From assembly GCF_019649055.1 (NCBI RefSeq), contig NW_026570270.1, forward strand, positions 186,001-250,000: a stretch of 64,000 nt of DNA, given 5' to 3'. This DNA comes from Paramacrobiotus metropolitanus (lineage: Eukaryota > Tardigrada > Eutardigrada > Parachela > Macrobiotidae). How positions within the stretch are numbered: position 1 is the stretch's first letter; each line of letters begins with the position of its first letter. Positions 9,079 through 34,145 of the stretch are shown here, one piece after another. The notes below the pieces were generated by a model, which was not told where the DNA came from, ran no database searches, and saw nothing but the letters and a program-made list of their open reading frames with translations. Made by a program: the position numbers and the translations under genes.

Positions 9079-9096
9079 TGGCGCCCACCGTGGTTC
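9079..9096 (+). other. Primer-binding site of the retroelement
   Basis: TGGCGCCCACCGTGGTTC begins directly after the CA that ends the LTR sequence. TGG is the complement of a tRNA 3' CCA, and 18 nt is the usual primer length. The reverse complement ends GGTGGGCGCCA, compatible with a tRNA 3' end. I cannot name the tRNA. Two partial copies of the same junction lie just upstream. Confidence 0.75.
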
Positions 9097-10127
9097 AAAC
9101 TTTCCCGATGGAGCAGAAAGTTTAATTTAATTTGATAGTACAATTAAATTGATGGTGCAGGATGGTTGGTGGTCAACTCGAGAGAGCCCACATTTAAGAA
9201 AGTCCGTTAGGAGCCACTAGTGTGGTGCAGGAGGTCTGCGTTCCAGTACTGACCTAGGGTAACCGAGTCCCCCGGTTGATTGATGTATAGATTGATTCGC
9301 ACTTAGCGATATATATTTTGGGTGACAATACGGACTGAGAACAGTATAGGCACTTGAAAACTGTTCGTGTATGCGGCACTTTACGTGTCTATGATTGAAA
9401 AAGCACCGTAAGACCATTCGAGGTCAAAATTTCCTTTCATTTTATTTTTCTTTTCTGAACCGGGCAAGCCAGAAAGACTACGTGAATTTGAACGGCAGAA
9501 CCAGCAGGATTAGCTGAGTGGAATTGTAAGTCAAACGTGCGAAAATTCGCAGTGTATTTTTAGCCGTTCTTTAATATTGAATCTTCGTAAAAATGTCGAA
9601 TTTTTGTAAATATGGCACATCCGAGTTAGCGGAATAGCCATCGTACTACAATTTTGAAAATTTTCGGTAATCAACAGAGCAGATATAGCTGTCTCTTGTT
9701 GTGAAACGCAGTGTCACTGTTAACTGGAAATCAGTCACAGTGTTGTAACTAGCGGTTAAATACGATTCGCAGTTGAAACCTTAAAGGTCAGCTGTAAATA
9801 CGAAATACGAGTTGCTTACTTACGCTTGAGTGCGTGTTGTAGCAACGAGATTCATACGAGTTTGTTACGCATGCTTGAGTGTGTGCTGTAACAACGAGAT
9901 TTTCGGACGTGTTGTTTCGGTACCGCGGAGGTTGGTATTGAGTCAGCGTCGTCCTAACGAAACGGTGTTGTCAGGAGTCACAGCTTTGAGTAGCGTACGT
10001 GTATTTCTGTCAAGAGCCGTGGGTCATACGAGTTGGTTGATTCGTCAATCAACGGGAACAGTGTAACTTTCACTTTCTGAATCCAGTTGTAATTGGTAAG
10101 GTTAGTCGCGGTTGCATTGCAAACAAA
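9097..10127 (+). other. Retroelement leader (5' UTR)
   Basis: About 1 kb without a convincing gene lies between the primer-binding site and the first gag ATG. It contains an imperfect direct repeat (9818-9852 and 9864-9901) sharing CTTGAGTG and AACAACGAGATT-like blocks. It also has a box-A-like TTAGCTGAGTGG near 9512. Leaders of LTR elements usually hold packaging and dimerisation signals; assigning that role here is inference. Confidence 0.5.
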
Positions 10128-16647: not shown

Positions 16648-18245
16648 CTTGCGAGTGTTGGGCAAAAAAACTCGTTAATAGGAAAGTAGGTGTCGATAAT
16701 ATTGACCGAGATACGGAGGAAATGGTCAGCAAACTCGAGTCTAAGCATTTGGTGTCGGATTCTACTTTCGGAACCCCAGCGGTTATTGTCCAGAGGAGTA
16801 ACGGGTCAGTAAGTTTAACTGACGATTGGCGGAAATTATCGCATGGAATAAAGGATTTACCGAGGCGAGAGTGTCAGGTAGCCACTATGGAAACAAAGAA
16901 GGTCGTTAGTACTGAAGCAGTAAAGGTTAGTAGTGGACCGCCAATTCAGAACGGTAGGCAGGAAATCGATATTAGTATTGAAGGCATGTTCGAGAGTGTG
17001 CCCGAGTCAGAACTAAATATAGTAGTTTTAGGAAAGCAAAAGGTCGTGGAAACTGTGCCGATCCAGGCAGTACAGGCGGTTAAGGAAGTTGTTTCAGTAC
17101 CGGCAATACAAAGTCAGAAATCAGTAGAAATTAATACGGCAACTATGAAGCGTTTAGCAGATTTTAGTAAATTAGGGTTAGTACCTCAATATCCGATCGA
17201 AATTCAGCCGAGAAATAGGGGAGTTATACGTGCTCGTATTAATAAATTCGGAAGTGAATTAGCAGAATTAATTAAAGGCGGATTATTGGAGCAGAATTTC
17301 GAGTATGAAGGTAAAAATTGCGGTCTATTATTGTTTTGTGACGGTATTGTTAAGTTTGATGAAAATGGTTATTGCGGTATAATTGTTGTGAATAATTCGG
17401 ATGATTCGATAGATTTATCTGAAAATTTTTATTTGGGAAATGTTGTTCCTGTTGAAGAAATTTACTCAGAAGGCGAAAACTATTATGTAGTTAGTAGCGG
17501 CAGTCAAGTACAGCATGTTGATGCATGTACAGTTGAGAAGCCGGCGGTAGTACATAAGCAGGTTGAATCGGAAGTCAACCTCATGGCAGTGCAACACAAC
17601 GTTGTTGAAGAGTCTGTAGTACCAGTAAATGTAACAGGTTATGTGGAAGTACCAGTAGAGTTGCGTGGTAAATACGTAACACCGCAAGAGGAATCTAAGA
17701 AAGCGGAAGCTCAATGTATAGAAGTTGTTAAAAATGACGAATCTAAAGTGAAAAGTAAGCGGTCAGGGAAATCTAATAGTTTGCCTAAATGGACTAGACC
17801 GAAAACGAATGATGGTGACGAATTTTACTTTCCGTCTAATGCGGAATGGGACAGTAAAGCTTTTTGGTTGGAACAACAACAGAGGTGTGTAGATATTCAG
17901 TCATGGCGCAATTTCTATAAAAATCCGAAGAATGTAGATTCTGAGGCAGTACGTGCGGAAGTTAATTCGCTGTTAGTGGAAAATAATGAACTTGTTCGTC
18001 ATAAAACGCCTGGTAGTGAGCGGTATAATTCGCATATTTTTATCCCTTTCCAATGGCGTGAGAAGCTTATGTTAGCTACGAATAAACGGGTTAATTATGA
18101 GAAAGAATTCGGTCCAGATATGACGATATTTAAATGTTTATATGAAGTTAAAAGATATTATTGGCCTAATATGAGAGAGGAAATTGAAAAGTTTGAAAGC
18201 AAACTCCCTAGGCATATTTTTAAGCAGAAATGGGGTACGAGTTGA
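16635..18245 (+). CDS. Degenerate pol continuation: RT stub, second linker, second integrase-finger relic
   Basis: The frame is open for 536 codons but has no ATG near its start (the first in-frame ATG follows about 28 codons in). It was therefore probably read on from the preceding frame by a -1 shift, or is a decayed continuation. Residues 25-75 resemble the first finger of gypsy RT: a helix, then FGTPAVIVQRSNGS and DDWRKL, equivalent to the conserved SPxxxVxKKDGSxRxCVDYR block. The catalytic palm (YxDD) never follows. Residues about 172-275 repeat the linker module (QPRNRGVIRARI, ending GNVVPVEEI). Residues about 455-530 repeat the integrase-finger region with YYWPNM, but the paired His and Cys are lost. 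The module therefore occurs twice in tandem with most of RT deleted. Confidence 0.65.
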   Translation: MRNLACECWAKKLVNRKVGVDNIDRDTEEMVSKLESKHLVSDSTFGTPAVIVQRSNGSVSLTDDWRKLSHGIKDLPRRECQVATMETKKVVSTEAVKVSSGPPIQNGRQEIDISIEGMFESVPESELNIVVLGKQKVVETVPIQAVQAVKEVVSVPAIQSQKSVEINTATMKRLADFSKLGLVPQYPIEIQPRNRGVIRARINKFGSELAELIKGGLLEQNFEYEGKNCGLLLFCDGIVKFDENGYCGIIVVNNSDDSIDLSENFYLGNVVPVEEIYSEGENYYVVSSGSQVQHVDACTVEKPAVVHKQVESEVNLMAVQHNVVEESVVPVNVTGYVEVPVELRGKYVTPQEESKKAEAQCIEVVKNDESKVKSKRSGKSNSLPKWTRPKTNDGDEFYFPSNAEWDSKAFWLEQQQRCVDIQSWRNFYKNPKNVDSEAVRAEVNSLLVENNELVRHKTPGSERYNSHIFIPFQWREKLMLATNKRVNYEKEFGPDMTIFKCLYEVKRYYWPNMREEIEKFESKLPRHIFKQKWGTS

Positions 18246-20618
18246 GGAAACTGTACATTGCAGTATAAGTGTTGTTAATTTTAGTAGACATGAAATGATG
18301 TAGTGAAGCGGCGTGTACGTAGGAGCTGCAATAAGCGCCTATAGTTGCATAATCAGTAGGCAGTGCTTAATAATGAGAATTCGTGTTGAAATTAGCGATG
18401 TGAAAATTTTTATTGTGGAAATCAGTAATCGCATGTAGTGTATTGGCTTAAGTGCACTTCCACAATGCTGTCAGCATTATGATTAATTAAAGATTAATAG
18501 AGCTGTATGAAGTCAGAGCAATGGTGAATTTTGAAATAAATTTTTGTCGAATATTGTAGTGCATAGGCAAATTCATAGGGACAGTTGGCTTCAGTTCACT
18601 GAAAGTCCAGTCAATTTAAGAGACACAGCGGTTAATTGAGTCTTATGCAGCATTTAAATGGAAACTTTAAATTTTTCCTTTTTACTTAGGAACATATGGT
18701 ACAATATACTTGTAAGCAGAGGAAATTAGGTCGTATGAGTTATTATTGTTTTGCGGTATGTGGAAATCAGAGTTCGGTGTTGTGGAGAAATTGTAGCTTA
18801 AAGGCTAACGAAGTACTGCATGTCGTTCAAAGCGCTCATCACACTAAATGTGTAACTATGAACGATGTTAGTCAGCAGCAGGCTGGCTAAGATAATTTTC
18901 TTTTACTGAAACTTCGTAGTGTATTGGTCCAGTGTGGATGGTGATAGATGCAAAGTACGGACAAAGAATATCCTGGTTGTTTGCGTATGAATTTGCAAAT
19001 TTAAACAATTTTTAGAATCACGGCATAGTTTTTATGAAATCGTAGCAGCATAATTCGGTTGCAGTATGACTTTAAATAATAGGAGTAAATATGGAAGTTG
19101 TAGTGAAATGGTTATAAGCATTTCAAATCCATTCGAGTAATGTTCTCACAGCTCAAGTAAACTTGAATGACAGATTAAGTCGGCGCTTCGGCGACTTAAA
19201 ATTTTATTTTTGCGTATAAACGTAGCGAAGTGAGTGTTTGGCAGATTCCCGTTGAACATAGCGTTGGCTTAACAAGAAAAACAATGGTTAATGAAAATTC
19301 AGGATTCATCCTTCCTTTTTGTGAAATATCGAAATGAGGAATAATGTAGGATAATCTTCCCATAAATAGCGGACATGCTATTTTGCAGTATGATTCTGAT
19401 CTTGAGTGCAGATGGGGTGAACCGTAGTGTTATGGCTAAAACGCAGGGAATTCCATATATTGTTGTTTGAATCAGTCATTGATGCAAATGTGGATCTAAC
19501 CAGTACAAGGCGGTTAAAGAAATTTAAGTTTTTTATGCACAAAATAGTTTTTGCACAAAAGATGTCGGTAAATTTTTAAAATTAGTGAACAAAAGGAAGT
19601 AAGAGAATGGGAGATTATGAATCGGTATCTGCTAGAAGTATAGCAAGTATTTGAATATTGCAACATGATTTCGAGTAAAGTTAGATACAGTAGTGAGTCG
19701 TAGTACTGGGGTTGAAACCCAATCCGATATCCGTTTAAAGAACCAGATCAGTTAGTATAGTAGCGGATTTTGCCAGCGCTAAGGTGGCTTGAAATTTAAG
19801 TTTTTGCGGATTTACTTAGTATTAAGGCTTGGTGAGCAGCAAGCCATCCACGGCACTAAGTCTTTAAAAGTACGCGTCAAAGTGCGCACGTTCCGATTAA
19901 AAGTGAAAATGTCAGAATTTAATTTTTTGATTTGGAGAATATGTTTTTACATAAGGAGATTTTGTTTTGGAGCGAAAAGCATCAAAAGAAGTGCGAAGGA
20001 ATAGTTTTGGATGCGGTTATGAAATAATGCATATTGCGGCATGTGTGGTTTATTTGTAGTAAATATGAAATTTCGTAGAATACTGGCGTTAAGGTTCAGT
20101 ATCTGCTGGTCTCGAAACGGTACGCATACTTCACTTTGAAATTCGAGCAAACGATTATTGAAATTTATTTTTATCACGAGTTTGTAGAATTGCGGCAGAG
20201 CACGGAGTGGCCGTCTCAAGCCAATGCAGTATGTGAAAATTGGTATTAGCAAATGTGGAAAAGTGTGGTGTAATGACAGCTGCAGTTCTTCTATGCTATT
20301 GTTGTCAATTAGCAGCTAGTAAAATAAAGGGAAAAGTTCGTATTTATTTTTCAAGATAATAATAAGAGAAGATTAAGTTTTTCATAAAAAGCGGATAATG
20401 TAAGAAAATCGAAATGCTTATGGAGTATGTGTATTTTTGACGAGAAACGGGTTGCAAGTCACGCAAAAGCCGTTTGATGACGTAATTCTCAGCACGTGCC
20501 AGATGAGCGGTCAGCAGTAGTGTGCTTTGTGGGTCGCGGAGTTTTGTGTTTAAACAGTGTAGTTTAAACAGTGTAGTTTGCGCGGTGTAGAACTGTCCAT
20601 TAATTTTGATGGTGAATT
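18246..20618 (+). other. Retroelement region after pol, no gene recognised
   Basis: 2.4 kb of AT-rich sequence with only short open frames, none convincing. GTAG, GCGG and CAGT words recur. Near 19706 there is a box-B-like GGGGTTGAAACCC preceded by CGTAGTACTG, perhaps an outlying tRNA-like module. Confidence 0.5.
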
Positions 20619-20921
20619 ATGAATCCTTCTCGTATTGGAAGACTGGATATTCTAGTTCAGCACTTTGATAAGTTTAGTTTTGAGAAGTCTGTCGAAATGC
20701 CGGCCTTGATTAAACCTGATGCGGAAGGTTTAATTCGCAGCGGTGCGAAGACGATCTTCGTCCGCCAGTACAATCGTAAAAATGGCGAGAAAAGTGTGTT
20801 TGTGACTACGGTCGAGGACGGACCGGAGGCGGAGAATTCGGAGTTTTGGGTGAAAGTTCACAGTCTGGTGGACGAGCAGTTGCAGAAAACTGCGCAGCAA
20901 GAGAATGCGGGTCAGAATTGA
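20619..20921 (+). CDS. Retroelement accessory protein 1, 100 aa, unknown
   Basis: The ATG at 20619 opens 100 codons ending TGA. I do not recognise the protein. It is charged, with no signal peptide or membrane segment. The middle (RSGAKTIFVRQYNRKNGEKS) is predicted strand-rich and basic, and the C-terminus (WVKVHSLVDEQLQ) is probably helical. Codon use (frequent GCG, CGT and TCG) resembles the gag gene. Upstream, TTTAAACAGTGTAG occurs twice in a row and could hold a splice acceptor for a subgenomic mRNA; that is inference. Being a compact frame with composition like gag in a region otherwise full of stops supports it as real. Confidence 0.5.
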   Translation: MNPSRIGRLDILVQHFDKFSFEKSVEMPALIKPDAEGLIRSGAKTIFVRQYNRKNGEKSVFVTTVEDGPEAENSEFWVKVHSLVDEQLQKTAQQENAGQN

Positions 20922-21891
20922 CCAGTGAAACGTATGAAGGAAGTGCGTGGAATTGTCGTCTCGGTATTCTGTTATTTGGGCTTTCGGTGAAAGCCTGTCT
21001 AATTTTGAAATCTTTATTTTTGTCAGATTTACGGATTTAAAGCTTTAATTTTGTGATGTTACGCGGTTGGGAGAACTCAATGGCGTAAGTACTGTGAAAA
21101 TAGCGGATGGAATGCGATTTTGCGGTATTTGTTGGCAGAAATTACCTATTGCGTTGATGGATTGCGAATTTATGAATTTTGTTAGAGAATTTGTTCTTCT
21201 TCAGTTTTGAACACTTCCGAATTGAAAGTGTTCGGTATTTGTCAATAAACTTGACGTCGACGGTGTATTTCCGGTTGTTGTACAGTATTACGTACTGAAT
21301 GTATCCCAGTGGGGATATTGCTGTCAAAACTCGTAGAAAGAGTTTAAGTGTATGGAAATGCTCCGTAAAATACAAATCAGTGTGATGAATAAATGTGCAC
21401 ACTTCCGAATCGTAAATTCTAAGTATTTGGGAAGAAAGAGGACTTCCGAGTACTCGGTGTAGCATGACACAGCAAAATACAGAATCCTGTATCGTAGCGC
21501 AACGAAGTAGGTAGTAGGGGTATGAGTACAGTGTAGAGAACCCAACAATTTGGGGATGTTCTGTGTAAATCTCAGACGAACGCTTTTGTCTGTCAGATAT
21601 AAATTTAAGGTAGAGAACTTAATCCCCTATCATCCTGAATGAAAACGAAGGAGAAATTGGCGGTCTTTGAGTAAAAAACAGCAGTTCTGTAAAGATCAGT
21701 GGTGTGGTGAGCTTAGGCTCAATAAAACAGCGGTATAACGATTGCGCAATCGCAATGTTGTGGTTTTCGGACTTCGAAATTTTTGAAATTTTAACGCTCT
21801 TATTCCTGCGAGATTTTCGTTCGTGGTTGGAGCAGTTTACTCGTTTGATTTTTGAAATTTAGCACTGGGTAGTGCGGGAGTATTGATTTTT
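20922..21891 (+). other. Retroelement spacer, no gene recognised
   Basis: About 1 kb between accessory ORFs 1 and 2. Open frames here are short and lack domains. No repeat or RNA gene could be assigned. Confidence 0.45.
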
Positions 21892-22449
21892 ATGATGGCA
21901 GCAGCTTTTCGTGCGGATAAGAGCGGACAGGAGTTGATTGTTCCTGTCACTCGTGTTGAGCCAGTAGAGAGTTCTGATGCGGAGAATGTTGTTGTTTTGC
22001 GAGCGGATGGCGAACCTGTTGATTCACAGCGACCTGTGGCATGTCGCCCGTGTGATTTGAAACGACGACCTGATATTAGTGGTCTGGAGAGAGCGTTGGA
22101 AAAGCTCGATCTCAACGAGGAAAAGAAAGCAGCGAAGAAGCGCGAAGCAGTTACTGGAATTTCAGTGAAGTTTGGTGTCAAACGTTCAGGATATTTTACG
22201 GTATTTCGTCGAACGGAGGTTCCGATTAAAAATACGACCATGCATTTGAAAGGAGAAACAGCCCTGGTGAACGAGCTGGTGCGGAAACTAAACGAGCACA
22301 GATTGAAGATTCGTCGCGTTTGGCAGAATGGTCGGATTGTGCGGATTTTGGGTCCCACTTACACGGTTCCGTGGCGATGGTCGGCAAAAGTGAGAAATCG
22401 TCCGATGCAGCACTTTCGGTGGTATACGTTTCCTAAGGATCGTCAGTGA
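21892..22449 (+). CDS. Retroelement accessory protein 2, 185 aa, basic C-terminus, unknown
   Basis: ATG at 21892 or 21895, ending TGA at 22449. The N-terminal half is acidic and polar with a CRPCDLKRRPD segment, then a charged helix rich in Leu, Glu and Lys (ALEKLDLNEEKKAAKKRE). The C-terminal half is strand-rich and strongly basic (FGVKRSGYFTVFRRTEVP, then VRKLNEHRLKIRRVW), ending in a Trp/Arg-rich tail. That is compatible with nucleic-acid binding, but I recognise no family. It has the same codon bias as gag and accessory ORF 1. It lies just upstream of the tRNA-like array. Confidence 0.6.
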   Translation: MMAAAFRADKSGQELIVPVTRVEPVESSDAENVVVLRADGEPVDSQRPVACRPCDLKRRPDISGLERALEKLDLNEEKKAAKKREAVTGISVKFGVKRSGYFTVFRRTEVPIKNTTMHLKGETALVNELVRKLNEHRLKIRRVWQNGRIVRILGPTYTVPWRWSAKVRNRPMQHFRWYTFPKDRQ

Positions 22450-22770
22450 AGCTGTTTTGTAACTGTAGTGGATTATGGTGTTTATTTTTGGGAAGAAGCC
22501 GTCTGAGAAATGAGCATTTCGATGTGTACGGTAATGATTCCGGTATGACTACGGTATGATTGTCGTATTTTGTTGGATTTGTATAGTGATCTCTTTTGTT
22601 ATGCGTGTCGATGCGGTATTATCTTGAATAAACAGTCAGTGGAAATTGTACAGCGTGTGAATAAATTTGTGGTCTAATTATCGATGCGGTTGTATGCGGA
22701 GCCAGTGTGTAAAAGGCAACCACAGTAGAGTATCTGTCAAATGCGGTAAAATAGAGAAAATTTATAGGAA

Positions 22771-22872
22771 ATTCGTAGTGGCCGAGTGGTTAGCGAATGC
22801 CTCTGGGTGAATCACCGGTTAAATTAACAATTGAACGTTACGAGTTCGAGGCCAGTGTAGGATAACATTTTT
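22771..22872 (+). other. tRNA-like module 1 (Ser/Leu-type box A)
   Basis: Box A TGGCCGAGTGG at 22779 is a perfect match to the tRNA-Ser/Leu consensus, followed by GTTA. Box B-like GAGTTCGAGGC lies at 22842 and TTTTT at 22868. The long middle suits a class II tRNA or a tRNA-derived RNA. An acceptor stem is not evident. Confidence 0.55.
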
Positions 22873-22954
22873 GGGACTTATTTTTGCCGGAAGCGATAAA
22901 TAAGGTAGCAGAGTCGAGTAAAATTTAGTAGTGTATAGGAAAACAAGAAATTGT

Positions 22955-23047
22955 GGAATCTGGAAGATAGCGTGGTGGTTACGATCTTCAGTGAAGTCGA
23001 GTGTTTAAAACCACAGTCACGGGTATCAATCCCAAACGATTAATTTT
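22955..23047 (+). other. tRNA-like module 2
   Basis: Box A-like TAGCGTGGTGG at 22968. GGGTATCAATCCC at 23021 can form a T-arm stem (GGG/CCC) around a box-B-like loop. TTTTT follows at about 23043. Confidence 0.5.
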
Positions 23048-23065
23048 TGTAGTTTACTTAGTGAA

Positions 23066-23159
23066 TTATCGGTAGTTTAGTGCAAAGATACACGGTGACG
23101 CCGTAATCAGTTAAACTCTGTGTAACTGGGATCGAGTCCCTGGTAAAAATTTCATTTTT
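23066..23159 (+). other. tRNA-like module 3
   Basis: Box A-like TAGTTTAGTGCA at 23073. GGGATCGAGTCCC at 23128 gives a self-complementary T-arm with a near-consensus box B. TTTTT follows at 23155. The spacing of about 45 bp between boxes is close to a class I tRNA. Confidence 0.55.
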
Positions 23160-23400
23160 AGTATTTATTCGGAAGTAGCAGTATGTTGCAACACGTGAAT
23201 GGAAATTACAAATTGCATCAGAAATCGTAGTGTAGGGTTTCAGCAGACAATTCTACAAGGACCCGAAGTGAAAACGACAAAAAATAACAGACGTGAAAAC
23301 AGTTGGTTAAATTATAGGAAAAAATTTCACCTTTTTGTAATTTAGCATAGGGATGTATTTTCACTTTTAGCGGTATGAATTTCTGTAATTTTTAGTAAAG

Positions 23401-23526
23401 CCTCATTAGCGTAGTGGTGGAAGCCACGGACAACGCTACGATCACATACACTTGAGTAGTTGATATCCTGTCGGCATACAAGGTTGATCCTTCAGAAACC
23501 AGGATAGCGCTTGTAGGCAACTTTTT
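23401..23526 (+). other. tRNA-like module 4
   Basis: Box A-like TAGCGTAGTGG at 23407, box B-like AGGTTGATCCTT at 23481 with AGG/CCT pairing, then a T-run at 23522. The middle is longer than in a normal tRNA. Confidence 0.45.
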
Positions 23527-23544
23527 AGCCTTATTTTTAGCGAA

Positions 23545-23657
23545 ATCTGTAGTGTCTTATGGGTAGTAACCATATAGCATCAGGCATGAGAAACCTTCAA
23601 AAGCAGCATTTGTTTCATGTGTTCTGGAGTTCAATACTCAGCACAGTCATAATTTTT
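23545..23657 (+). other. tRNA-like module 5
   Basis: A degenerate head (CTGTAGTGTCTTATGGG) is followed at 23626 by GGAGTTCAATACTC, a box-B-like T-arm, and TTTTT at 23653. Confidence 0.4.
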
Positions 23658-23756
23658 GGTAAATTTTATTAGAATTTCAGTAGGATTTATATTTGTAATT
23701 ATAGGGCAGTATGTATTGATAATCATCAGCGATATTTAGAATTGTACTTTTAGTAA

Positions 23757-23846
23757 CTTCGTAGTTGGCGCAGTGAGTGCGGCCTACGTGATATTTTCGC
23801 ATTGCACACCAAGAGAAACTGGTATCAACTCTTCAAAATAATTTTT
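23757..23846 (+). other. tRNA-like module 6
   Basis: TTCGTAGTTGGCGCAGTG includes TGGCGCAGTG, as in elongator tRNA-Met box A. Box B-like GGTATCAACTC is at 23821 and TTTTT at 23842. Confidence 0.5.
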
Positions 23847-24190
23847 GGCGCGTATTATTTTTCAGTGGATGTATCTTCCAATCAGTAACTCACGGAAAAG
23901 CCAGAATGTTATTATTTAGCAGAAATTATAGTAATTTATAGGAAATCAGTTTTTGTTTTGGCGGTGTATGCAAACTTCGATTTTAGCGGTATGTCAAAGT
24001 TGTAGAGCAGTGGCTCTATCGAACGAGCGCATCAGGAGTTATGACGAGAAATCTTACGTATAGCAGAGCTGAACATGTAGTAAAAATTCCTTTTTCTCTT
24101 ATGGAGTAAATTTTGGGTATTTTGTGATATTTTTGCGGATAACAGTTTGTGTCAGAAAACCATAGAACATCAAAACCATAGCAGTACAGA

Positions 24191-24210
24191 TGTTGGCGCC
24201 CCTCGGTGTC
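24191..24210 (+). repeat. PBS-like motif copy a (TTGGCGCCCCTCGGTGTC)
   Basis: The motif resembles the element's primer-binding site (TGGCGCCCACCGTGG). It recurs near 25393 (TTGGCGCCCCCCGGTACC), 30948 (TTGGCGCTTATCGGTGTC) and 31568 (TTGGCGCCCCTCGTTGGC). Three of the four are preceded by CATAATAACA- or ATAACAACATC-like sequence, and several are followed by CATCTGTTTTAAC-like sequence. Together they form a second repeat family. Confidence 0.5.
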
Positions 24211-24686
24211 ATCTCTCCACATCTGTTACTAGCTAATCCAATTATATTTTCGAATGAGTATGGCAGATTTTTGCTTTATTGACGGTGGAATATGTGAATT
24301 TTAGTAATTACTATAGGCAGAAGTAGTAGTACAGTGGCTATAAGATAAATCTGTACAGCAGCGTTATAATGTATGTTCAAGTGTGAAAAACTATACAGCA
24401 TGATTTGGAAATTCCTTTTATTGGAAAATCAGTAGGAAATTATTTTTGGATGAAAATGCGGATTTCAGAATTTATCAAGTTGTGTTGTAATTCAGTAGCG
24501 GTAGTTATGACGATTGTGTATTTCCGTATGGTCAGCAGTGAATCAGTATGACGAATCCAGTACGTGAGTCAGTATTGCGTGTTTTGAGCGGCAGAATTTT
24601 TCAGTGTTTTAGTCTGAGTTTGCGAGAATTTCAGTGGCAGATATTTGATTTGAATTATTTCCTTGTGTTGAGAATTTTGTATTATC

Positions 24687-25073
24687 ATGTCGAAGCGTGG
24701 TGAAATTATTAAGCAGCACAGTGGTGCTCAAGCTCTTTTGTTTCCTGAGAATGCATTTGATGATCGCGTGAAAATGGCAGACAGTGTGAGAGAGCGTGTA
24801 ATGGAAGATCTCTCTTCCAAGGTTCTCGATTGCCATGTGAAAGACGACCTGAAGAACGAACCTAATGCGGCGAAAGTGGTGGAGAAAGCGAATGTTGAGA
24901 CTCCAGTGCAGTCTCGTGAAGTTCCGAAAGAAGCGGAGAAGACGACGACCAGTGGGTCTCAGCAGTCAGCTATGAGTAAGGAAGAAGCGGACAAGGAGTT
25001 CTTTCGCAAGTATTATCGTCCCTATAATCTTCCTCAGCCGAGAATTGATCCTCATTTTCCTCATGGTTGGTAA
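24687..25073 (+). CDS. Retroelement accessory protein 3, 128 aa, unknown
   Basis: ATG at 24687 and stop TAA at 25071-25073. The protein is hydrophilic. A Lys/Glu-rich N-terminus with helix-forming MADSVRERVMEDLSSKV is followed by a Glu/Lys/Ser/Gln-rich linker. A short, probably folded or binding tail follows (KEFFRKYYRPYNLPQPRID), ending PHFPHGW. No family is recognised. It lies between tRNA-like modules, and its codon use matches the other accessory frames. Confidence 0.5.
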   Translation: MSKRGEIIKQHSGAQALLFPENAFDDRVKMADSVRERVMEDLSSKVLDCHVKDDLKNEPNAAKVVEKANVETPVQSREVPKEAEKTTTSGSQQSAMSKEEADKEFFRKYYRPYNLPQPRIDPHFPHGW

Positions 25074-25500
25074 TGGACATGTTTTCGATTTTATGGAATG
25101 GTTCTCACTTAGTACCTTGATTTATCGGTGATTCTAGCTTTTATTCAGAGATTTTAGAGAGATTTCCTTGTGCATATGGAGCAGTATTTCTCAGCATTTT
25201 AGATATATTATTGGTGGATGTATCGGCGTTTTTGTTCAGTATTTAGTTGTAGATTTATTCAGAGGATTTATTAAAGATTTAGTTGTCGGTTTTGTGCGTA
25301 TTGTTATTTGCGGATTAAAGCGGTGATTTTGCAGTGACTTTATTTGTCTGTGTATAGCAGTGTGTCATCATAATAACAGCGGCAGTAGTGGTGTTGGCGC
25401 CCCCCGGTACCAGCACACCTCACCATTCACTCGCCGTCTGTAACACCAAAAATCCAGTAAACACAGGAGAAAAAGTAGAATTATAGAATATGAGTAGTTA

Positions 25501-25520
25501 TTATTGCACGACAATGGCGC
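25501..25520 (+). repeat. Internal LTR-end/PBS-like junction 1
   Basis: TTATTGCACGACAATGGCGC closely matches the LTR-end/PBS joint at 9066-9085 (CTATTGCACGACATGGCGCC), with one extra A. It lies inside the element, about 16.4 kb from the true PBS. Confidence 0.5.
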
Positions 25521-25720
25521 GTAATCGTTTGTTCCTAGTTATTTTGGATGCAGGAAATGTGTATTACAGTATGAAGAAACAGTAATATTGTAGTATTGAA
25601 ATTCGTAGTGTAGTGGCGTGAGATACCATCTCCAGACGTCGGTTTAGTCTACCTTTAATAACGAGTAGTAGTGGAAACTTTAGATTTTTGCAGTGAATCG
25701 TAGTATTTTTATTTCGGTGA

Positions 25721-25818
25721 ACTTCGTAGTGGCCTAGTGGCTTAGAGATCTCGCAGTAATAATTTAACACGAATAGTAACAGCGATGATCGGAGTTCAAC
25801 TCCTGACTTGTAATTTTT
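25721..25818 (+). other. tRNA-like module 7 (Ser/Leu-type)
   Basis: Box A TGGCCTAGTGG at 25730. GGAGTTCAACTCC at 25791 is a self-complementary T-arm with a near-consensus box B. TTTTT follows at 25814. Confidence 0.55.
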
Positions 25819-25850
25819 GTTTCGTAGCGTGTTTATTTTTAGTGGAATTA

Positions 25851-25957
25851 TCGAATTTCGTAGTAGTCGAGTGGTTATGAAGTGGCGCTACAGATCTGGA
25901 CATTGTCATCGGTAGCAGTATAGCCATAGTTCGAAACCCGAGCAAGTTGTAATTTTT
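25851..25957 (+). other. tRNA-like module 8
   Basis: The head TTTCGTAGTAGTCGAGTGG holds box A TAGTCGAGTGG at 25864. Box B GTTCGAAACCC at 25929 fits the eukaryotic consensus. TTTTT follows at 25953. Confidence 0.55.
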
Positions 25958-26090
25958 GTATTTCGGAATATGTATTTTCGCGGAATTATGTTGTTGGAAT
26001 TCTAGAAACTTTGTGGTAAAACTCAGTATGGTATTAGTAACAGTAATTTTTTAGTATTAGCGGTGTTGTAGTGTTGTAATTTTAGTAATT

Positions 26091-26198
26091 TGCGTAGTGG
26101 CGCAGGGTACATGTTTTACAGATCATAGTAGTTTCTGTCAAATAGTAGGACAAGCAGGTCTCGAGTTCAACCCGTGCTAGCAGTAGAATTTTCTTTTT
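26091..26198 (+). other. tRNA-like module 9
   Basis: TGGCGCAGGGT at 26098 as box A, GAGTTCAACCC at 26163 as box B, TTTTT at 26194. Confidence 0.5.
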
Positions 26199-26390
26199 CC
26201 ATTCAGTTTTGAGCAAACGAATGACTTTTTAATTTTAGTAAATTGTAGGAATTGTTTTATGAATCATGAAATAAGCGGAAATTAGATTTGTAAAAATTGA
26301 GAACTGTTGCGGTAATATTTACCGGATTGTTATAGTCAGTTATCCAGTAACAGTTTAGGGCGTAGTAATTTACGGCATTGTTGTGAAAAT

Positions 26391-26499
26391 TCGTAGTAGT
26401 GCAGCGGGTCCATTGATTAGCATATGTTAAGCTAAGTCAGATTTTAAACGGCTTTACTTCCGTAGCACTTGTTCGATTCCCCTTAAGGGCGAACTTTTT
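26391..26499 (+). other. tRNA-like module 10
   Basis: TAGTGCAGCGG at 26397 as box A. GTTCGATTCCCC from 26471 is a canonical box B. TTTTT follows at 26495. This is among the best-preserved box B sequences in the array. Confidence 0.55.
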
Positions 26500-26972
26500 G
26501 CAAAACTTTGGTTCTGTTTTTGTGTTGTCAGTATTCAGTAATTATTTTCATTAGTATTTACGGTGAAATCACTTGAGAAATTATGAATCTCATGTTTGTG
26601 GTATTTATGCGGATAACCTTTTCCTACTTCGTATTACTCAGTGTATTATTAGCGGCTTTAGCAGTAGCAATATTGTCAGCAGTTTTACTTCGTACTTTTA
26701 TTTGGATTTCGTAAAACACAGAAATTTTACTTCGTATTGAACATTGCGGCAGTATCAGAGTACGCCAGAAAAATAAAATCAACATAGAACTTTTCACCAG
26801 TGTTCATCGCAGTTGAACAGTATTCACTCGGTAATTTGTGCAAATATACAGAATAAAATCGCAAAAGGCGATCTGAATAAAATCGAACGTAAATATACAA
26901 GACGTAAGAGAAAAGATAAAAGAAATAAAATCAATACATCAATACAGCAGACACGGTAAAAGACTTCGTAAT

Positions 26973-28287
26973 TCAGTTCTTCTTGAAACGCTTGGCAGCA
27001 GGAGTTTTCAAATGCAGAGATCCATCCGGTTTACGTGAGAAAACCATAGCAACTGATTTAGGCATGTCTCCACGTGTTTCAGTTCCTGGTGCGTTAGGAC
27101 GTTCAGCAATCACGGTAGTAGGATCGCGTAGCAGAGATAGCGTGTCCTCAGCAGTTTCGGTTTTTGGCAGTAGCGGAATAGGATTTGCGGCCAAGAGTCC
27201 ACACAGAGGCATCGGCCCATGCATCGCAGCAGCATCGATTTTCATGGCAGTTTGACGCAGAATACTTTGTGCCTCAGTTCCGAGATAGGGAATTCGTACT
27301 TCGATAGTAGTTCCTTCGCGAGCACAGCGATCACAGCCACGATTATGCTCCTGAACCAGCATTCCTGTAATGATAGTAAATCAGTAGGAAATTTATACAG
27401 AAATTGTAGTTGCACAATTCAGTATTAATAGTCAGAAACTGCAGATAATTAGCGGAAATATATAGCAATTAATTTTGTAAATATTTAGGCGGAAATGAAA
27501 AGTATGTAGATTTGTTGTGGTAATTGTAGGGAAATATTCGCAGTAAATTATAGGAAATTATGCAGTAATAGTTATGCGGAACTAAGAGATACAGTAAGCG
27601 GTCAATTATTTTAGCGGTTTTATCAGATTTTTGTATGTGTTTGATCTTACCGACTCCTCGTGCTAATTCGTCCGACAGTCCTTGAGTTCGTCGATCAGTC
27701 ATTTCGCGGTATACGATCGCACTCACGAACTTGTCTCCTCCGATAGACGTTAGGCATCCAATTTCCAGTAAGAAGTTTCTTTCCTTGTGGTAATACTTGA
27801 TCCAGTTGTGTAAGCAGACAGTGTATGTTGTTCGGATGATGCGTTGAATTTCGAATTTCGTCATTGCGTATCCTCCTTCCTCCAGCACAGTCAGAACAGC
27901 GTTTCGCAGTTGCAGTCGCGTGGTAATTTCCTCGTTGCGATCTCGCTGAATTCGTGACGATACTTCCAGGAAACAACGTCCTTCTTTCACTCTTTTGCGT
28001 AGGAACCCAGAAGTTACAGCAGTCTCGATGTACTTGTCGATGTTCAGCATGGTGAATTCATGGTGTGCGTTGTTCAGTGTAGCCTTCAGATATTCAACAT
28101 CCACGTAAAATCCAGAATCGGTGTGACGTCCAATGATAGTTCGGACGGCGAATTGGAAAGCTTCGTACAGTCGCATTTTTCGTGTGTAAAAACTCGTAGT
28201 GTCACGATCGAAAATTTGTTCGATACCAACATGCAGTCCAGCAGGAGCAGTAGATAAGGCAGTAATAGCGTTTAGCATAGCGGACAT
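26973..28287 (-). CDS. Antisense, intron-containing accessory gene of the retroelement, 342 aa, unknown
   Basis: On the minus strand, exon 1 runs 28287-27651 and exon 2 27364-26973. The intron starts GTAAGATC and ends TTACAG, 286 bp. Splicing joins G to GA as a Gly codon and keeps frame, giving 342 residues. Exon 1 encodes a mostly helical, charged protein (SFYTRKMRLYEAFQFAVRTI, then LRNAVLTVLEEGGYAMTKFE) that could be winged-helix-like; that is a guess. Exon 2 has a CDRCAREG motif and a Lys/Arg tail (AAKRFKKN) that may be a nuclear-localisation signal. Being antisense, its intron would survive passage of the sense genomic RNA through reverse transcription. Without splicing, exon 1 reads on for 60 codons to a stop, so the spliced form is preferred. 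The family is not recognised. Confidence 0.65.
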
Positions 28288-28902
28288 TTCAGTAACTATA
28301 GGTCACGCTTTAAGAAATATAACGTCTCAGTAATTCTGGTAGGAAAACGTATGAGGAAACAGAACTGAAAATTTTTCGGAAGCGGTGATGACTTTTATAG
28401 GCTTATAGCAGGAAATTGTGCAGCGTGTTCAGTGTATGTGTGTATCGCCCTTGTATGGCAGTGTGTCAGTGCAACTCGTAGTACGTATGTTCTTCTCATG
28501 TATTGTACGCCTCAGTACTTTAGCGCGTGTTTCAGTGCAGATGTACAGTTTTACTTCTTAGAATTATGGAATTGTTAGTTTTTGCGGTCAGATTTTCAGA
28601 TTATCAGATTTTAAGTAGTAGGATATCTTTTTCCTTATTGCACGACTTGCGCCCAATCGTGGTTCAATATGCGGAAATAACCTTCTGAACAGGAAAAGTC
28701 AACTTTGCGGTAATTTCAGTGTAATTAATAGCGTATGGTTAACCCTCGTGGTATGGCAGTCTTGTGTACAGTAGGTTGAGAGTGATGACAGTGCAGATTT
28801 GTTGTGGTTTTTAATTCAAAGAGATACCGACAGTGTTGTGATTTCGTCAGAGCAGTGAACTCTTTTGTTGTGGTTTTTCGATTTTTGATATTTTCGGTAA
28901 TC
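28288..28902 (+). other. Spacer between antisense gene and accessory ORF 4
   Basis: Divergent intergenic space. An LTR-end/PBS-like junction lies at 28632-28668. Promoters for both flanking genes could be here, but no TATA box is clear. Confidence 0.4.
28632..28668 (+). repeat. Internal LTR-end/PBS-like junction 2
   Basis: CCTTATTGCACGACTTGCGC followed by CCAATCGTGGTTCAA parallels the true junction (CCCTATTGCACGACATGGCGC, CCACCGTGGTTCAA) over about 35 bp. It sits 235 bp upstream of accessory ORF 4, much as the true PBS lies upstream of gag. Confidence 0.55.
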
Positions 28903-29901
28903 ATGCCTCCTAAAGCGATTAAGCGTAAGCGGGAAGAGAGCTCTTCTTCTTCTTCTTCTTTCAGTAGTAGCAGTTCGAGTAGTAGTGTTAACTTTGCTGA
29001 TGAATCGGAAGTGTCCTTCATTTCGATCTCCAGTATTCCTTCGAATGAGTCAGATGTGACGGAAACTCAGAGATTTTTGGCAGATGTTGATCCTTACGCA
29101 GTTGATTATATTGTGAGAGAACCTGATCCTGAAATTGGTAATCGCAGTGGCGTAGCAGATGTTGAGAGTGTGCACAGCGGCAACTCCAGTGCAGGTTTCG
29201 AGAAATCAGCGGAAATGTTCGATTGTTTTCAAGAAGACGGGAAACGTTATAAAGTGATCTCTACGACTGATACTGAGAGTTTTACGACCTTGATATCTAC
29301 TCCCAGCGAAACATGTGATGACGAAGATGAATGTGCGTCGTGTTCAACTGGTCCTTTACCTAACACAGCGGAGAGATTAGCTAATCTGGCGGATGTGAAT
29401 GTTGAAGTTGAGTCAGATCGCAGTTCGGAATTTGAAGAGCAACCCATGGTGTATCACGAGAAAACTCCTCCAAAACGTGACGATAAAGGTAACATAGTCC
29501 TTCATCCTGGAACTCGTTTGTTTTTGAATGGCAAGTTGTACCATGCCGGAAAACTTATCAGTGTCAAGAAGTTTAACCATTTTGTGCGTAATATGTCCAG
29601 AGAGCGGAACCGATATCTTAAAACTCAGTATTTATTCGCTCATCCTGATTCGATTGAGAGTCTAAACTTGATTGCGCAGTTGCATCGGAGAAATGACAGC
29701 GTCGTCAACTTTCCCACGCGAATGATGTTCAATGGCGGGTTATTGCATTCGCAGCATGTTGATAAACCTTCCCCAGCTGCAGTGCGGAAGAGGCAGCGGG
29801 AAATCAGTCCTGAAATTGTTGAAATTCCTTCAGTTGTGTTGTCGCGTGAATCTTCTCCTGAAATCCCTGTTCAGCGTCGTAAGAAGCAACGAACTTTTTG
29901 A
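28903..29901 (+). CDS. Retroelement accessory protein 4, 332 aa, Ser-rich with basic ends, unknown
   Basis: ATG 28903 follows TTTTCGGTAATC. The frame is open further upstream but without an ATG. The N-terminus has a likely nuclear signal (KAIKRKREE), then a 20-residue Ser-rich tract and a long acidic, Ser/Thr-rich, probably disordered region to about residue 190. A more ordered block (HPGTRLFLNGKLYHAGKLIS) follows, then a basic helix-rich stretch (FNHFVRNMSRERNRYLKTQ). The C-terminus is basic (RRKKQRTF). This layout of NLS, acidic region, small folded domain and NLS suggests a nuclear regulatory or nucleic-acid-binding protein. No family is recognised. Confidence 0.65.
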   Translation: MPPKAIKRKREESSSSSSSFSSSSSSSSVNFADESEVSFISISSIPSNESDVTETQRFLADVDPYAVDYIVREPDPEIGNRSGVADVESVHSGNSSAGFEKSAEMFDCFQEDGKRYKVISTTDTESFTTLISTPSETCDDEDECASCSTGPLPNTAERLANLADVNVEVESDRSSEFEEQPMVYHEKTPPKRDDKGNIVLHPGTRLFLNGKLYHAGKLISVKKFNHFVRNMSRERNRYLKTQYLFAHPDSIESLNLIAQLHRRNDSVVNFPTRMMFNGGLLHSQHVDKPSPAAVRKRQREISPEIVEIPSVVLSRESSPEIPVQRRKKQRTF

Positions 29902-32900
29902 ACCCTTTTGTTGTCGGTTCGTATTTGTTGTGTTTTTACTTGGAATGGTGTGTAGTATTACGGTAACTACGCGGAAATTGTCTTTTGTTATTTGCAGTCG
30001 TCGTACAGGAATGGTAGTATTTTTGTGGCAGTATTTTTCGCGGTATTTTCTAGTTTTTACTCTGGTCGTACGGATCGGTGTACTATGACGTATTTCACTT
30101 TTTATTCGTTGATCAGTTTTGGTGTATTTGTTCAACAGCGGCATGTTTACGTTGCAGTGTGAATACCGAATATCGTAGTGTTATGGCGTGTACTTCGTAC
30201 GAAATGTTCATCCTGTGTTTGTAGCACGCTTTGATAAATTAAGGCTTGTGCCAGTGAAACTTTCCTTTTTTGTTGAATTATGTATAGGTTAGTAATTTTT
30301 GCATAGATATTAGCTTTTGTTGTGGGTGTTGGCATATTTGTCAGAAGCAGCTTATAGTCGTGGTACAGTAGTATGTGGATTTTCGTAGTGTGAGCGATAG
30401 CTTATAACACACAAGTGGTCATTTTGAGTGTATTGAGCAGCAAATTGTATTGCTTGCAGAATAATCGGTAAAACTTCAGTTTTTGGTATTATTTTTGCAG
30501 TATGAGCAGTGTTAACCTTGTCAGTGTAGGAATTCGTAGGGTGATGTACGGTCTGAACGTAGGTGATCTTGAACGTTGAATTTGTTCCAGCTTTGTGAAT
30601 AACATCAGTAAGTAGTTGAATTTTCCTTTTTCTCAAAATTGATAGCGGTGTAGTATTTTTGTGCGTTCCCACCCTCCCAATCCCGTTTCAGAAATAATTA
30701 TGGATGCAGCATGAAATTGGCAGTAGTATTTTTCGTGATTGTTCGTAGTAGAATGGCTCTATGAGAACGGTGCTCCTCCGGTTGCAGCGGTTTAAATCAA
30801 CTGTTTCTTCCATCTTAACACGGATTGTTGGTAATTTACCTTTGTAAATAGAACTTTGTCAGTAGAATTTTGAAATAACTTTTTGCGGTAATAACTCAGT
30901 ATTTTTGCTCATAACGATAACAACATCAACGATATGCGGTAATAGTGTTGGCGCTTATCGGTGTCACCAATCCGCACTATTCTCTTGCATCTGTTTTAAC
31001 AATCTGTCAGTTTTCGAATTTTGATATTCAGCGCTATGTGCAGTAATTTTCATTTCGGTATCGGTAACTCGTAGTCCAGTGTTTCAAATGGAATATCAAC
31101 CAGTTAGATCAATGTGTCGTTATTAGCAGTGCAGCATGTGATTTTCGGTATTAATTTTTGTTGAACTTCGTAGTGTAATGGTTTTATATCACTGTATCGG
31201 CGGTCATTAAAAGCTCACTCCAGCATATATGATATTCGCTTGAAATATTCATGAATGCAGAATTTTCAGTACCTTTTTACCTTTTGCGGCATGTTAGCAG
31301 TAACTTTTAGCAGTATCGGAGTATCGTAGAGTAATGTTCGTGTATGCAAGGAAATCGTACCAGAACCTTTCCTAATAACTTTGTGCGGTATGAGATTTTC
31401 GACTTACCTTTTTGCAGTACTTCGTAGTAGTTCGGCTTGTGGGTGTAGATAAAATTGAGCATTGAGCAGGATTCCTTAAATGTTGATATGCAGTAGTTGA
31501 AATTTTCTTTTTTGTAACACCATAATAACATCTTATATATCTTAACAACATCTTAAAACCATAATAAGTCTTGGCGCCCCTCGTTGGCCCTTAAAACTTT
31601 TAACACCTTCAGATAATTATAGATGCGGTATGTGTATGGTTAATATTTTCGGTATCGGTAGTTTGTAGCTGGTCGGCTTTGTGTTATCTATACAGATGGA
31701 TGTGTGTAAAGTCTTATGTAAATTCTTGCGGTATTTAGCATTTCAGCAGTATTTTTAGTAATTCTCGTAGTTTATCGGCATGTGAGTCAGCGCGACGGTC
31801 AACGGTTTTCTTTAATCAACAGTATGTTAGAATTAATGCAGATGTTCAGTTTCATAGAAATTATCTTTTTGTCGAGATTTCGTAGTATATGAGCTTTATG
31901 AACGGCTGTGTTGCAGGACTAATTCGTGATTTTCCAGATATCAGTATATGCAGTATGTAATGCCGTCCCAATATTTTTGTGAAATTTCGTAGTAGAGTGG
32001 TGATAACGAATCTGTGGTGATAACTGACTAGTTCGGACAGATCATGTAAATTCTCACTTAAAAACTTCCTTTTCCGTATATTTGTATTTGCAGTTTGTCG
32101 GCGGTTGAACCTTATTTTTGTGAATCAGCGTAGAATTTCGGCTTTAGTGTGTGTTTCTCATCATCCAGTTATAAGCTTATAAGTCTCAGATTTTGGTGCA
32201 TGTAGCAGTAAAACTCCCTTTTTCGTTGAATGTTCGTAGTTAGACGGCTTAAGATCCAGCAAATCCTTTATATCGTCTATATCTCTGTAATAATATTGTT
32301 GTGTTTAAATTTTGAACTTTTTACCTTGTTTTTCGATATTACCTTTGCAGTATGATTTTCAACAGTCTTTAATTTTGTGGCTTATCGTAGTGTTTCGGCT
32401 TTAATCGCTTGTAGATCTTTTATCATTGCATCTTAAGTGCAGATTTACTCTTCATTTTCAGTAGCAGTATAGCAGTCGGTTTTAGTTTTTGTTAATTTTC
32501 GTAGTATGTTGTCAGTCTAAGCGTTTTGCATTGCGTATCGTCTGAACTTAGTATTTCCTTATCAGTGCAGTATGATTAGTAACTTTTATCTTTTTAATTA
32601 GCTTCCGTAGTATAATGTCTGATGGTTCGTTTCCTACCACGTTTCACGGCTTAGCGCAGATATAACTTTCCTTGTTGCAGTTAGTCTTTTAATCCTCTAA
32701 TTTTTATTAGTTATTCGTAGTATAACGGTTGTCAGTCGTCTCATACATCCACTTTCAATACGGAATAACATTTAAATGATCAGTCTTTAAAGCACTTAAT
32801 GCTATAAACAACATCTTTTTCAACATCTTTTTAATACGATAACACCCTGGATCTCATGGACGTTCCTGCTCTCCGCCTTTCCACCTCCTTGGACTTCCGG

Positions 32901-33145
32901 ATTGCCAGTTACGCTCCAGGATCCGATGACCTATAACACTCAAACAACTTACCGGATCAAGCGATGTTACTTACTTTTGATGGCACCGGATAGTCGGGAT
33001 GGAATTTGGCGATAGTGCTAGATGTTGCACGCACTATGCGGATGGAGCAGATGTTACTTTTTCCTATGTCCCTATGTTCCTTCCTCTTCGTTCCACGTCG
33101 TTCCGCAGAGCTTCACTTTTGTTCCACTACGATCCAGAGAAATCT
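29902..33145 (+). other. 3' part of the retroelement interior: dense tRNA-like heads, no gene recognised
   Basis: 3.2 kb with no supported ORF. CGTAGT-type heads occur near 30174, 30384, 30742, 31067, 31168, 31422, 31766, 31880, 31987, 32228, 32386, 32500, 32606 and 32715, often followed by ATGGNT or TCGGCTT. The best is at 31166 (TTCGTAGTGTAATGGTTTTA), close to a tRNA-Val 5' end. PBS-like motifs lie near 30948 and 31568. The last 300 bp are richer in GTTCC words. Confidence 0.5.
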
Positions 33146-33150
33146 CGTTT

Positions 33151-33157
33151 GCGGGGG
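33151..33157 (+). other. Polypurine tract before the right LTR
   Basis: GCGGGGG directly precedes the TG of the right LTR, the position where plus-strand DNA synthesis is primed. It is short and G-rich. The longer context GTTTGCGGGGGTG recurs three times inside gag-pol. Confidence 0.6.
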
Positions 33158-34145
33158 TGACGTGTACTGGCGTCCCTTAGTACACATCGGTACTACTTTA
33201 CTACTTCTACCCCTACAACTAAGGCTTAGGCTTTACTACATCTTTTACGCGAGTCCTGACCCCGAGTCTCTACTTCGACTTCTCAGAAATCCCCAGCAGA
33301 GAACTTTGACCGCGACTTGCCATTTCGACGTGACCGCGCTTCGATGACGTAGCTCAACCTATTGTTCTAGTGTATTAGTTGACCTCATGTTCTCATTTGT
33401 CCACGTGTAGTGATGCAGCGGTGTGATTAGTCCACGTGTCCTTAGATGTCTCTTATTGGTTAGATTCTAAATCCCTATTGTTCTCAGATCCGTACCTGCG
33501 CGTACGAAGAGCCAGCACTTGCGGTGCCCACGGCTATATAAGGCGCTCGTCGCCCACACAAATGTCAAGAGTTGTAATCCCAACAAAAGTAGAGTCTTGT
33601 TACTCGATCTGATTAACTTCAGGCTTTTGCTCTGGTTTTCTCTTTCCAAGTGAGGCTGTTCAAACTGACCTCTGGGTGACCTTTCACCTATTGTCAGGGG
33701 TCATTCCTCTACTTCGTCGACGTGCATTATCATCTTCGGATAGTCTCGTGACGTAACAGGCTACCCACTTGATCCCACTTGATTGCCGTGACCTTTCGGT
33801 CCCTTCGATCTTCATGCCCTGTAGCGCCAGGTTGATGGATTAGTCATACTCATACGCTTCAGCTACCATCTAGCGTCGGACAGGTAACGTATAACTTCAC
33901 GCATCCCTTGTGTTTCCTTTCGTGTCTTCTCTTTCAGCAGGCTTTCTAGTTCCGGATCCTCTTCTTCATCCTTGCATATCATCTCATACTTGTACATCAA
34001 CATCCTTAACCTTTCGCTCCATGAAATACATAAGAAGTTGAGATTAAGAGTCGCTCTATTCCCCCGACTGGTCGTGGTCCGGGAAGTGCATTATTTCCAC
34101 CGCACAACCGCTTTATTTATATTTTACTTTCCCTATTGCACGACA
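33158..34145 (+). repeat. Right LTR
   Basis: 988 bp, TGACGTG...CACGACA, followed by GTAT (34146-34149). A TATATAAG box lies at 33535-33542. It ends about 370 bp upstream of the ATG of KLHL gene 2, in the same orientation, so its promoter could drive or disturb that gene. Confidence 0.9.
33535..33542 (+). promoter_or_regulatory. TATA box of the right LTR
   Basis: TATATAAG, identical in sequence and position to the left LTR box. It points towards the downstream KLHL gene. Confidence 0.65.

Follow-up and report, generated by a model that had tools for sequence, protein, structure and literature searches.

The window analysed here is the whole stretch of 64,000 nucleotides at positions 186,001 to 250,000 (forward strand) of contig NW_026570270.1 of the tardigrade Paramacrobiotus metropolitanus (assembly GCF_019649055.1). 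It contains a Ty3-like long terminal repeat (LTR) element of ~27 kb (6862–34145), and the subject of this text is the 15-kb region between the coding part and the 3' LTR of this element, in which short modules with box A-like heads, candidate units of RNA polymerase III (Pol III), follow one another on the plus strand. For comparison with other copies the genome was searched (169.8 Mb in 533 contigs). The element is delimited and coded as follows (window positions; ORF, open reading frame; PBS, primer binding site; RT, reverse transcriptase).

6862–7850 (+): 5' LTR (TGACGTG...GCACGACA), GTAT directly before
8976–9093 (+): PBS TGGCGCCCACCGTGG in three copies (8976, 9026, 9079)
10041–11813 (+): ORF1, 590 codons stop to stop, without Pfam domain
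11743–16647 (+): ORF2, weak Gag/Arc capsid-like part, aspartic protease, weak H2C2-like zinc-binding part
16626–18245 (+): ORF3, RT-like start, then repeated post-protease and H2C2-like parts (by eye)
33158–34145 (+): 3' LTR, GTAT directly after

The two LTRs are 99.5% identical over 992 columns (0 mismatches, 4 gap openings), and 40 long matches to the LTR were found in the genome at 94–100% identity. Paired LTRs with TG..CA ends, the GTAT target duplication and the PBS were present as in Ty3/gypsy-like elements, and the placing of the modules within one retroelement by the initial annotation of this DNA was thus correct. The first 12 bases of the PBS match the 3' end plus CCA of host tRNA-Lys(CTT) by eye. 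Between the 5' LTR and the last PBS (7851–9093) lie copies of a host BTB-exon sequence, a partial LTR end and the three PBS copies; the BTB-exon copies recur after the 3' LTR, and the structure may stem from two haplotypes joined during assembly or from a rearrangement. Pfam matches in ORF2 were gag-asp_proteas (E 1.9e-7), H2C2 (E 0.0024) and Arc2 (E 0.013), those to Gag and H2C2 being weak, and the ORFs of the window copy gave no match to RVT_1, RNase H or rve. The pol of this copy is rearranged, despite the near-identical LTRs. A family without RT was dropped from consideration because RVT_1 matches were found at the expected place beside some other family copies; one sister copy has a protease-side part, RT, RNase H and H2C2 in a single frame (by eye only). 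Related families in the genome have 39–44% of capsid-protease residues in common with the element, and a search for remote protein relatives of the Gag-protease part yielded 3507 candidates, none of them at E 0.001.

Heads, boxes and T runs in the window copy

Heads were searched with TTCGTAGTNNNNTGG (at most two mismatches) in the window and in 100 shuffles of it. The window contained 57 matches (15.8 ± 3.6 in shuffled sequence), of which 26 lie on the plus strand within 22771–32745 and none on the minus strand there; two of the 26 overlap and a few are apparently spurious. With a stricter regular expression, 23 heads on the plus strand and one on the minus strand were found in 18246–33158 (binomial p 3e-6). 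These counts agree with the roughly two dozen same-strand heads first described for 22771–32745, but not with that start, the first strict head lying already at ~18.3 kb. Strict heads span 18297–32714, outside both LTRs, and neither the 5' nor the 3' LTR contains a head with up to two mismatches. The modules that were delimited are given below, all on the plus strand (T5, run of five thymidines).

18297–19810 (+): first module block, strict heads at 18297, 18432, 18553, 18790, 18913, 19097, 19421 and 19697
22766–22872 (+): module with box A (TGGCCGAGTGG), box B (22843, AGTTCGAGGCC) and T5
25596–25689 (+): module with exact head TTCGTAGTGTAGTGG, T5 at +83
25717–25818 (+): module with box A, box B (25793, AGTTCAACTCC) and T5
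25851–25957 (+): module with box A, box B (25928, AGTTCGAAACC) and T5
26085–26198 (+): module with box A, box B (26164, AGTTCAACCCG) and T5
26384–26499 (+): module with box A, box B (26470, TGTTCGATTCC) and T5
30166–32820 (+): 3' array of 18 modules, heads near 30174, 30384, 30535, 30744, 31070, 31169, 31325, 31423, 31664, 31766, 31881, 31988, 32130, 32235, 32386, 32500, 32606 and 32716

Box A was searched with the exact pattern TRGYNNARN1-3GG. On the plus strand of the 15-kb 3' region 18 exact matches were found (4.9 ± 1.8 in shuffled sequence) and on its minus strand none (1.3 expected), while control regions were near chance, with 5 vs 3.7 in gag-pol and 4 vs 2.8 in 14 kb of host sequence. 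The most enriched 8-mer of the 3' region is TTCGTAGT (16 vs 0.8), which was not found in the gag-pol ORFs; the best form of the head is TTCGTAGT-RYAR-TGG, with box A within it. Heads are 102–151 bp apart from 31664 to 32716, the last kilobase, in keeping with the nearly regular spacing noted earlier towards 32.7 kb, and 98–326 bp apart before that.

T5 starts at +85 to +115 in 17 of 22 window heads, at +15 to +45 in none and at +45 to +75 in one, so the T5 runs of the initial annotation were found again; in the first block 7 of the 8 modules have T5 at +96 to +119. Genome-wide, 184 exact heads were counted on the forward strand only, and T5 started at +90 to +120 in 101 of them, at +50 to +80 in 6 and at +140 to +170 in 39, related copies being included; at a background of 0.100 per 31-nt window (283,146 windows from host loci), 18.4 of 184 would be expected. 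Among the 100 heads listed, 90 lie outside the element family, and 48 of these 90 have T5, namely 25 of 34 with the canonical (RYAR) box A and 23 of 56 with other forms. Because Pol III terminates at T runs, its genes typically show T5 at an almost constant distance and a deficit of T5 within; the terminal T run with few inside that marks type 2 Pol III genes was found in the window and in the genome-wide counts. A reading of the T run as an Sm site or splice acceptor, weighed by eye, was dropped, the T run lying 3' of the head in mixed contexts outside the family.

Box B was scored at 9 or more of 11 positions and compared with shuffles. Between 22.7 and 26.6 kb there were 7 sites (3.2 ± 1.6 expected), a number reached in 1 of 50 shuffles, and over the whole 15 kb there were 14 (13.3 expected), which is chance. 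Pairs of an exact box A with a box B within 25–120 bases numbered 5 in the whole region (0.5 shuffled), 4 of them between 22.7 and 26.6 kb (0.2 shuffled); in 30.1–32.8 kb such pairs were no commoner than in shuffles. The pairing with box B-like sequences that had been reported for at least ten heads is thus above chance in the former part and at chance in the latter, and the number ten is reached with looser matches only. Possibly the 3' array, in which box B is weak, expanded more recently, is decaying or serves another use.

Other copies, sister elements and the rest of the genome

The 3' 2.7 kb of the window copy was matched in 13 other copies (longest match of each 80–92% identical), and module bodies are conserved between copies at the same places. 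Within 30383–32759, the copies agree with the window at 97.1% of positions in the CGTAG core of 17 heads and at 86.7% in the remainder, and none of 5000 random samples reached 97.1%. Of 190 module-copy pairs (15 of the 17 modules, those with T5 in reach, in 13 copies), 184 retain the T run, the control value for other 4-mers, not matched for low complexity, being 68%. Module number varies among copies, and a number of alignment breaks coincide with heads. Of the 13 copies, 12 have in common, upstream of the point at 30.1 kb in the window, a stretch of >1.4 kb with further modules, which in one copy (L071) have a period of 138–147 bases; the window has an ORF at that place. At the position of window 28789–29901 most other copies have a different ORF plus modules. 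Accessory ORFs at 26973–28302 (−), 21856–22449, 24672–25073 and 28789–29901 (+), two of which are antisense, gave no convincing Pfam match. Blocks at 30660–30700 and 32840–33157 are nearly invariant between copies.

A further related copy (L073) lies 1.2 kb downstream of an RVT_1 match. Its heads precede other bodies, 8 exact box A matches were found (1.8 shuffled), and T5 lies at +85 to +115 in 5 of 6 heads matching the regular expression. The sequence TTCCCACCCnCCC...CCCGTTTCAGAAA and the stretch before the 3' LTR recur in L073, which also repeats a TTTATTTCACGTCATGGC...ATGGTTC motif several times (by eye). At two other loci (L007/L008), a capsid-protease match of a sister element (41% identity) lies 13–14 kb upstream, and the loci presumably belong to that element. 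They hold 7 exact box A and 9 box B sequences, forming 5 A+B pairs (4 units) where shuffles gave 0.1, and none of 100 shuffles reached that number; an example unit reads TAGTGTAGTGG...GGGTTCAAAACCC...CTTCTTTTTT. Sister elements with 40–42% capsid-protease identity carry such units 3' of pol, many of them with box A and box B.

Across the genome, 33 of 372 heads have GTTCRA at +60 to +85, compared with 0 of 51 for a reversed-pattern control. Their position was compared with the best-scoring listed Ty3 matches (61 capsid-protease, 150 RT): 20 of the 33 A+B heads lie 7.6–19.4 kb downstream of a listed capsid-protease or RT match on the same strand, 9 of these 20 being 12.5–12.8 kb from a capsid-protease match, with 2 of the 33 upstream of such a match and none downstream of one on the opposite strand. 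Among the 100 heads listed, 23 are downstream of listed Ty3 matches on the same strand, 1 on the opposite strand and 4 upstream; without the element family the counts are 14 of 90 on the same and 0 of 90 on the opposite strand. In 128 kb of host loci, all 5 RYAR heads (at most two mismatches) have their first run of four or more T at +104 to +124; 4 of the 5 are in the window. Host-side window heads like TTCGTAGTRYARTGG are at 46770 (−), 50395 (−), 51066 (−) and 54788 (+), with the first such run at +104 to +114. No Pfam match was obtained in 8 ORFs scanned from five loci (L001–L005), and host-locus units may be host genes or old element remains. The window further shows BTB/BACK, Kelch and GST matches in short separate ORFs, which together with the tRNAs of the genome mark the DNA as eukaryotic, and, at 40713–41289, a 192-bp unit in three identical tandem copies.

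Sequences resembling the PBS lie among the modules:

24186–24226 (+): PBS-like TGGCGCC double-stem hairpin, again at 25387–25427 and 30941–30981
28636–28668 (+): internal copy of the LTR-end/PBS junction, 26 of 32 bases

The hairpin has the form TGGCGCC-loop-GGTGTCA within an outer stem and lies between modules; it is also present in L073 (2901–2941, 4116–4156), and a weaker relative is seen near 31566 (by eye). In the outer stem of 7 sequences 100% of cells are paired, 4 of the 7 pairs vary on both sides, and the covariation score was matched by 0 of 500 shuffles. The first bases of the hairpin fit the tRNA-Lys 3' end, as do those of the true PBS (by eye). For the junction copy, 5 shuffles of 24 kb gave no match at 21 or more positions; further copies lie near 25500 in the window and near 3391, 3492 and 5994 in L073. 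Internal junction copies are possible extra primer sites.

Identity and possible use of the units

The 3' region is best read as a same-strand array of tRNA-derived Pol III-type units in a giant Ty3-like lineage, predicted to yield RNAs of ~100 nt; we give this reading a probability of about 0.6. Each unit opens with a head containing box A, some retain a box B 60–90 bases beyond it, and most close at a run of five or more T ~85–120 bases from the head. TFIIIC and Pol III would use these units, and one RNA of ~100 nt with its own unrelated body would be made from each, alongside the Pol II genomic RNA. The observations behind this reading are direct ones, namely the sequence itself, the strand bias, the terminator spacing, the scarcity of internal T5, the conservation of heads and T runs, the presence in sister elements and the change in module number. 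The earlier suggestion of Pol III-type units in a Ty3/gypsy-like element accords with the strand-specific box A, the partial A+B pairing, the T5 spacing and the conservation in copies and sisters. Of the tests attached to that suggestion, box and T-run spacing proved far beyond chance and the modules were found conserved in the 13 other copies, but a tRNA fold gained no support.

Several results weigh against the array reading. ARAGORN found 0 tRNA genes in the window and 0 in 9 related loci, and Rfam gave no tRNA match in the window, in 18000–33500 not even at E up to 10, nor did its tRNA model match in 6 related loci. When 47 modules were folded (33 from the window, 8 from L073 and 6 from L071), the mean z was +0.11 with none below −2, while 40 gag-pol control pieces had a mean z of −0.11 with 5 below −2. 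Just 11 of 24 array modules have the A found in almost every tRNA box A; box B is at chance in 30.1–32.8 kb (2 vs 2.2), and L073 has 2 box B sequences where 4.4 were expected and no pair with an exact box A. One spacing (67 bases) accounts for 23 of the 33 A+B places, which are probably copies of one family. The genome-wide T5 counts take in related copies, so independence is overstated; the control for T-run conservation did not match low complexity; and with a looser head (any NNNN, at most two mismatches) T5 was at +90 to +120 in only 5 of 39 cases in host loci, barely above background. Between head and T run no strong motif common to the modules was found, and a hidden box common to unit bodies was rejected, since a Gibbs search barely exceeded shuffles (175 vs 158–171 and 182 vs 162–171).

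As ARAGORN, Rfam and folding gave no tRNA fold, we conclude that the units are not tRNAs; they would be tRNA-derived Pol III-type units with unrelated bodies. The term 'tRNA-like', as the modules had been called, suits the promoter sequence only. True tRNA genes were ruled out by ARAGORN and Rfam, and miRNA-like or otherwise structured RNAs by folding (0 of 47 modules with z below −2); tRNA mimicry for packaging finds no support in structure. Primer supply, proposed at the outset, was given up because no array stretch fits the tRNA 3' end needed by the PBS (best 7 of 9 bases). By analogy with viral Pol III RNAs, the role of the units would most likely be that of small RNAs, or of Pol III recruitment, serving the element in trans as decoys or regulators, and the in-trans products would most likely not be tRNAs, primers or pre-miRNAs. 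A wider proposal is tentative, at less than even odds: each module of the giant LTR lineage would encode a Pol III small RNA of its own, giving a set of tens that grows and shrinks through duplication of units, and the same class of box A-headed, ~105-nt, T5-ended units would occur genome-wide, some outside recognised elements. If true, this would be a new class of small-RNA genes carried and multiplied by retroelements, perhaps against host silencing.

The main rival holds that the array is TFIIIC-binding or Pol III-poised DNA, an insulator or open-chromatin boundary of the element, whose RNAs would be immaterial. We consider it unlikely, though a serious competitor: a conserved head core without RNA structure, bodies unrelated to one another and a same-strand array directly before the 3' LTR would all suit it. 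Box B, however, is the main TFIIIC site and is at chance in the 3' array; a binding site needs neither T runs at terminator distance nor few T5 inside, and the conservation of bodies between copies at the same places also speaks against it.

Less probable again is that the modules are functionless remains of a tRNA-derived short interspersed nuclear element (SINE) or of tRNA pseudogenes, which entered once and then spread by tandem duplication and recombination. The varying module number with several breaks at heads, the similar upstream linkers of array modules (TTTTTGTNGAATTTCGTAGT), the similar units in loci without a recognised element and the similar tails of L007 units (by eye) would follow from such a history. 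Head cores and T runs, however, are better kept than the rest, canonical box A accompanies T5 (25/34 vs 23/56), and units occur in sister elements at 40–42% amino-acid identity. The dispersed copies with a common body that define a SINE were not seen, as module bodies among the 23 heads have no mutual similarity at E 0.01, and an orientation of 23 to 1 is unexpected from random insertion; SINE accumulation, one of the original proposals, is for these two reasons disfavoured as the main cause.

There is only a slight chance that the heads are repeated cis signals of the element's long RNA (packaging, strand transfer, splicing) resembling box A by accident, with T run plus CGTAG as a splice-acceptor-like or protein-binding motif. 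The motif TTTTTGTNGAATTTCGTAGTNTNATGGC, directly before the bodies in the tandem array, and the covarying PBS-like hairpin and internal LTR-end/PBS junction in the same region speak for such signals; against them, the T run of units outside the family is kept 3' of the head, none is evident upstream of solitary units (by eye), A+B pairs occur in L007, and 23 places have box B at a single fixed distance. The least probable reading of all is that of true tRNA arrays, tRNA-mimic folds or primer supply: the heads resemble tRNA 5' halves, some with box B, but ARAGORN gave 0 genes, Rfam no tRNA and folding no tRNA fold, and the best fit to the primer 3' end was 7 of 9.

Comparison with known systems

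To our knowledge, such Pol III units have been described only singly, in the LTRs of miniature elements, or in small numbers in some viruses. Many different units lined up in a giant retroelement with coding capacity would mean that retroelements can bring along a small-RNA repertoire or Pol III platforms of their own, and the class would be testable because head and T-run positions predict starts and ends for >100 units in one genome. In the open-licence literature of PubMed Central no such array was found reported for a Ty3/gypsy element, by which absence from print is not shown.

Giant Gypsy-like elements such as Burro and Ogre resemble the window element in their very long internal region and accessory ORFs (PMC6431247). 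The size of Burro is tied there to a giant polyprotein and accessory domains, and the text of this review contains neither 'tRNA' nor 'Pol III'. Helenus, Ajax and Cassandra (TRIMp3) are short non-autonomous LTR elements with a Pol III promoter, and animal Helenus, with 4-bp target duplications, is thought to depend on Gypsy (PMC10886601). The likeness lies in tRNA- or 5S-derived box A/B sequence within LTR elements; as described in that source, however, the TRIMp3 unit sits in the LTR of a miniature element, whereas the window element codes for proteins, is ~27 kb long and has tens of units in its internal 3' region, with different bodies and T runs of their own, features that set it apart from TRIMp3.

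Among viruses, murine gammaherpesvirus 68 likewise carries several type 2 units of Pol III whose heads resemble tRNA, the TMERs (PMC8223928). TMERs are herpesviral, have tRNA-like structure and carry hairpins giving miRNAs, whereas the window units have no tRNA fold and no excess structure. Bovine leukaemia virus offers a retroviral genome with a cluster of Pol III small RNAs (as cited in PMC3911700); its units, as presented there, are pre-miRNA hairpins, and none were found by folding the 47 modules. The tRNA-derived SINEs also have box A, sometimes box B, and a T run and need no tRNA fold (PMC10886601). Unlike SINEs, the window units form a same-strand array at fixed places in an LTR element, are conserved between copies and have no common body.

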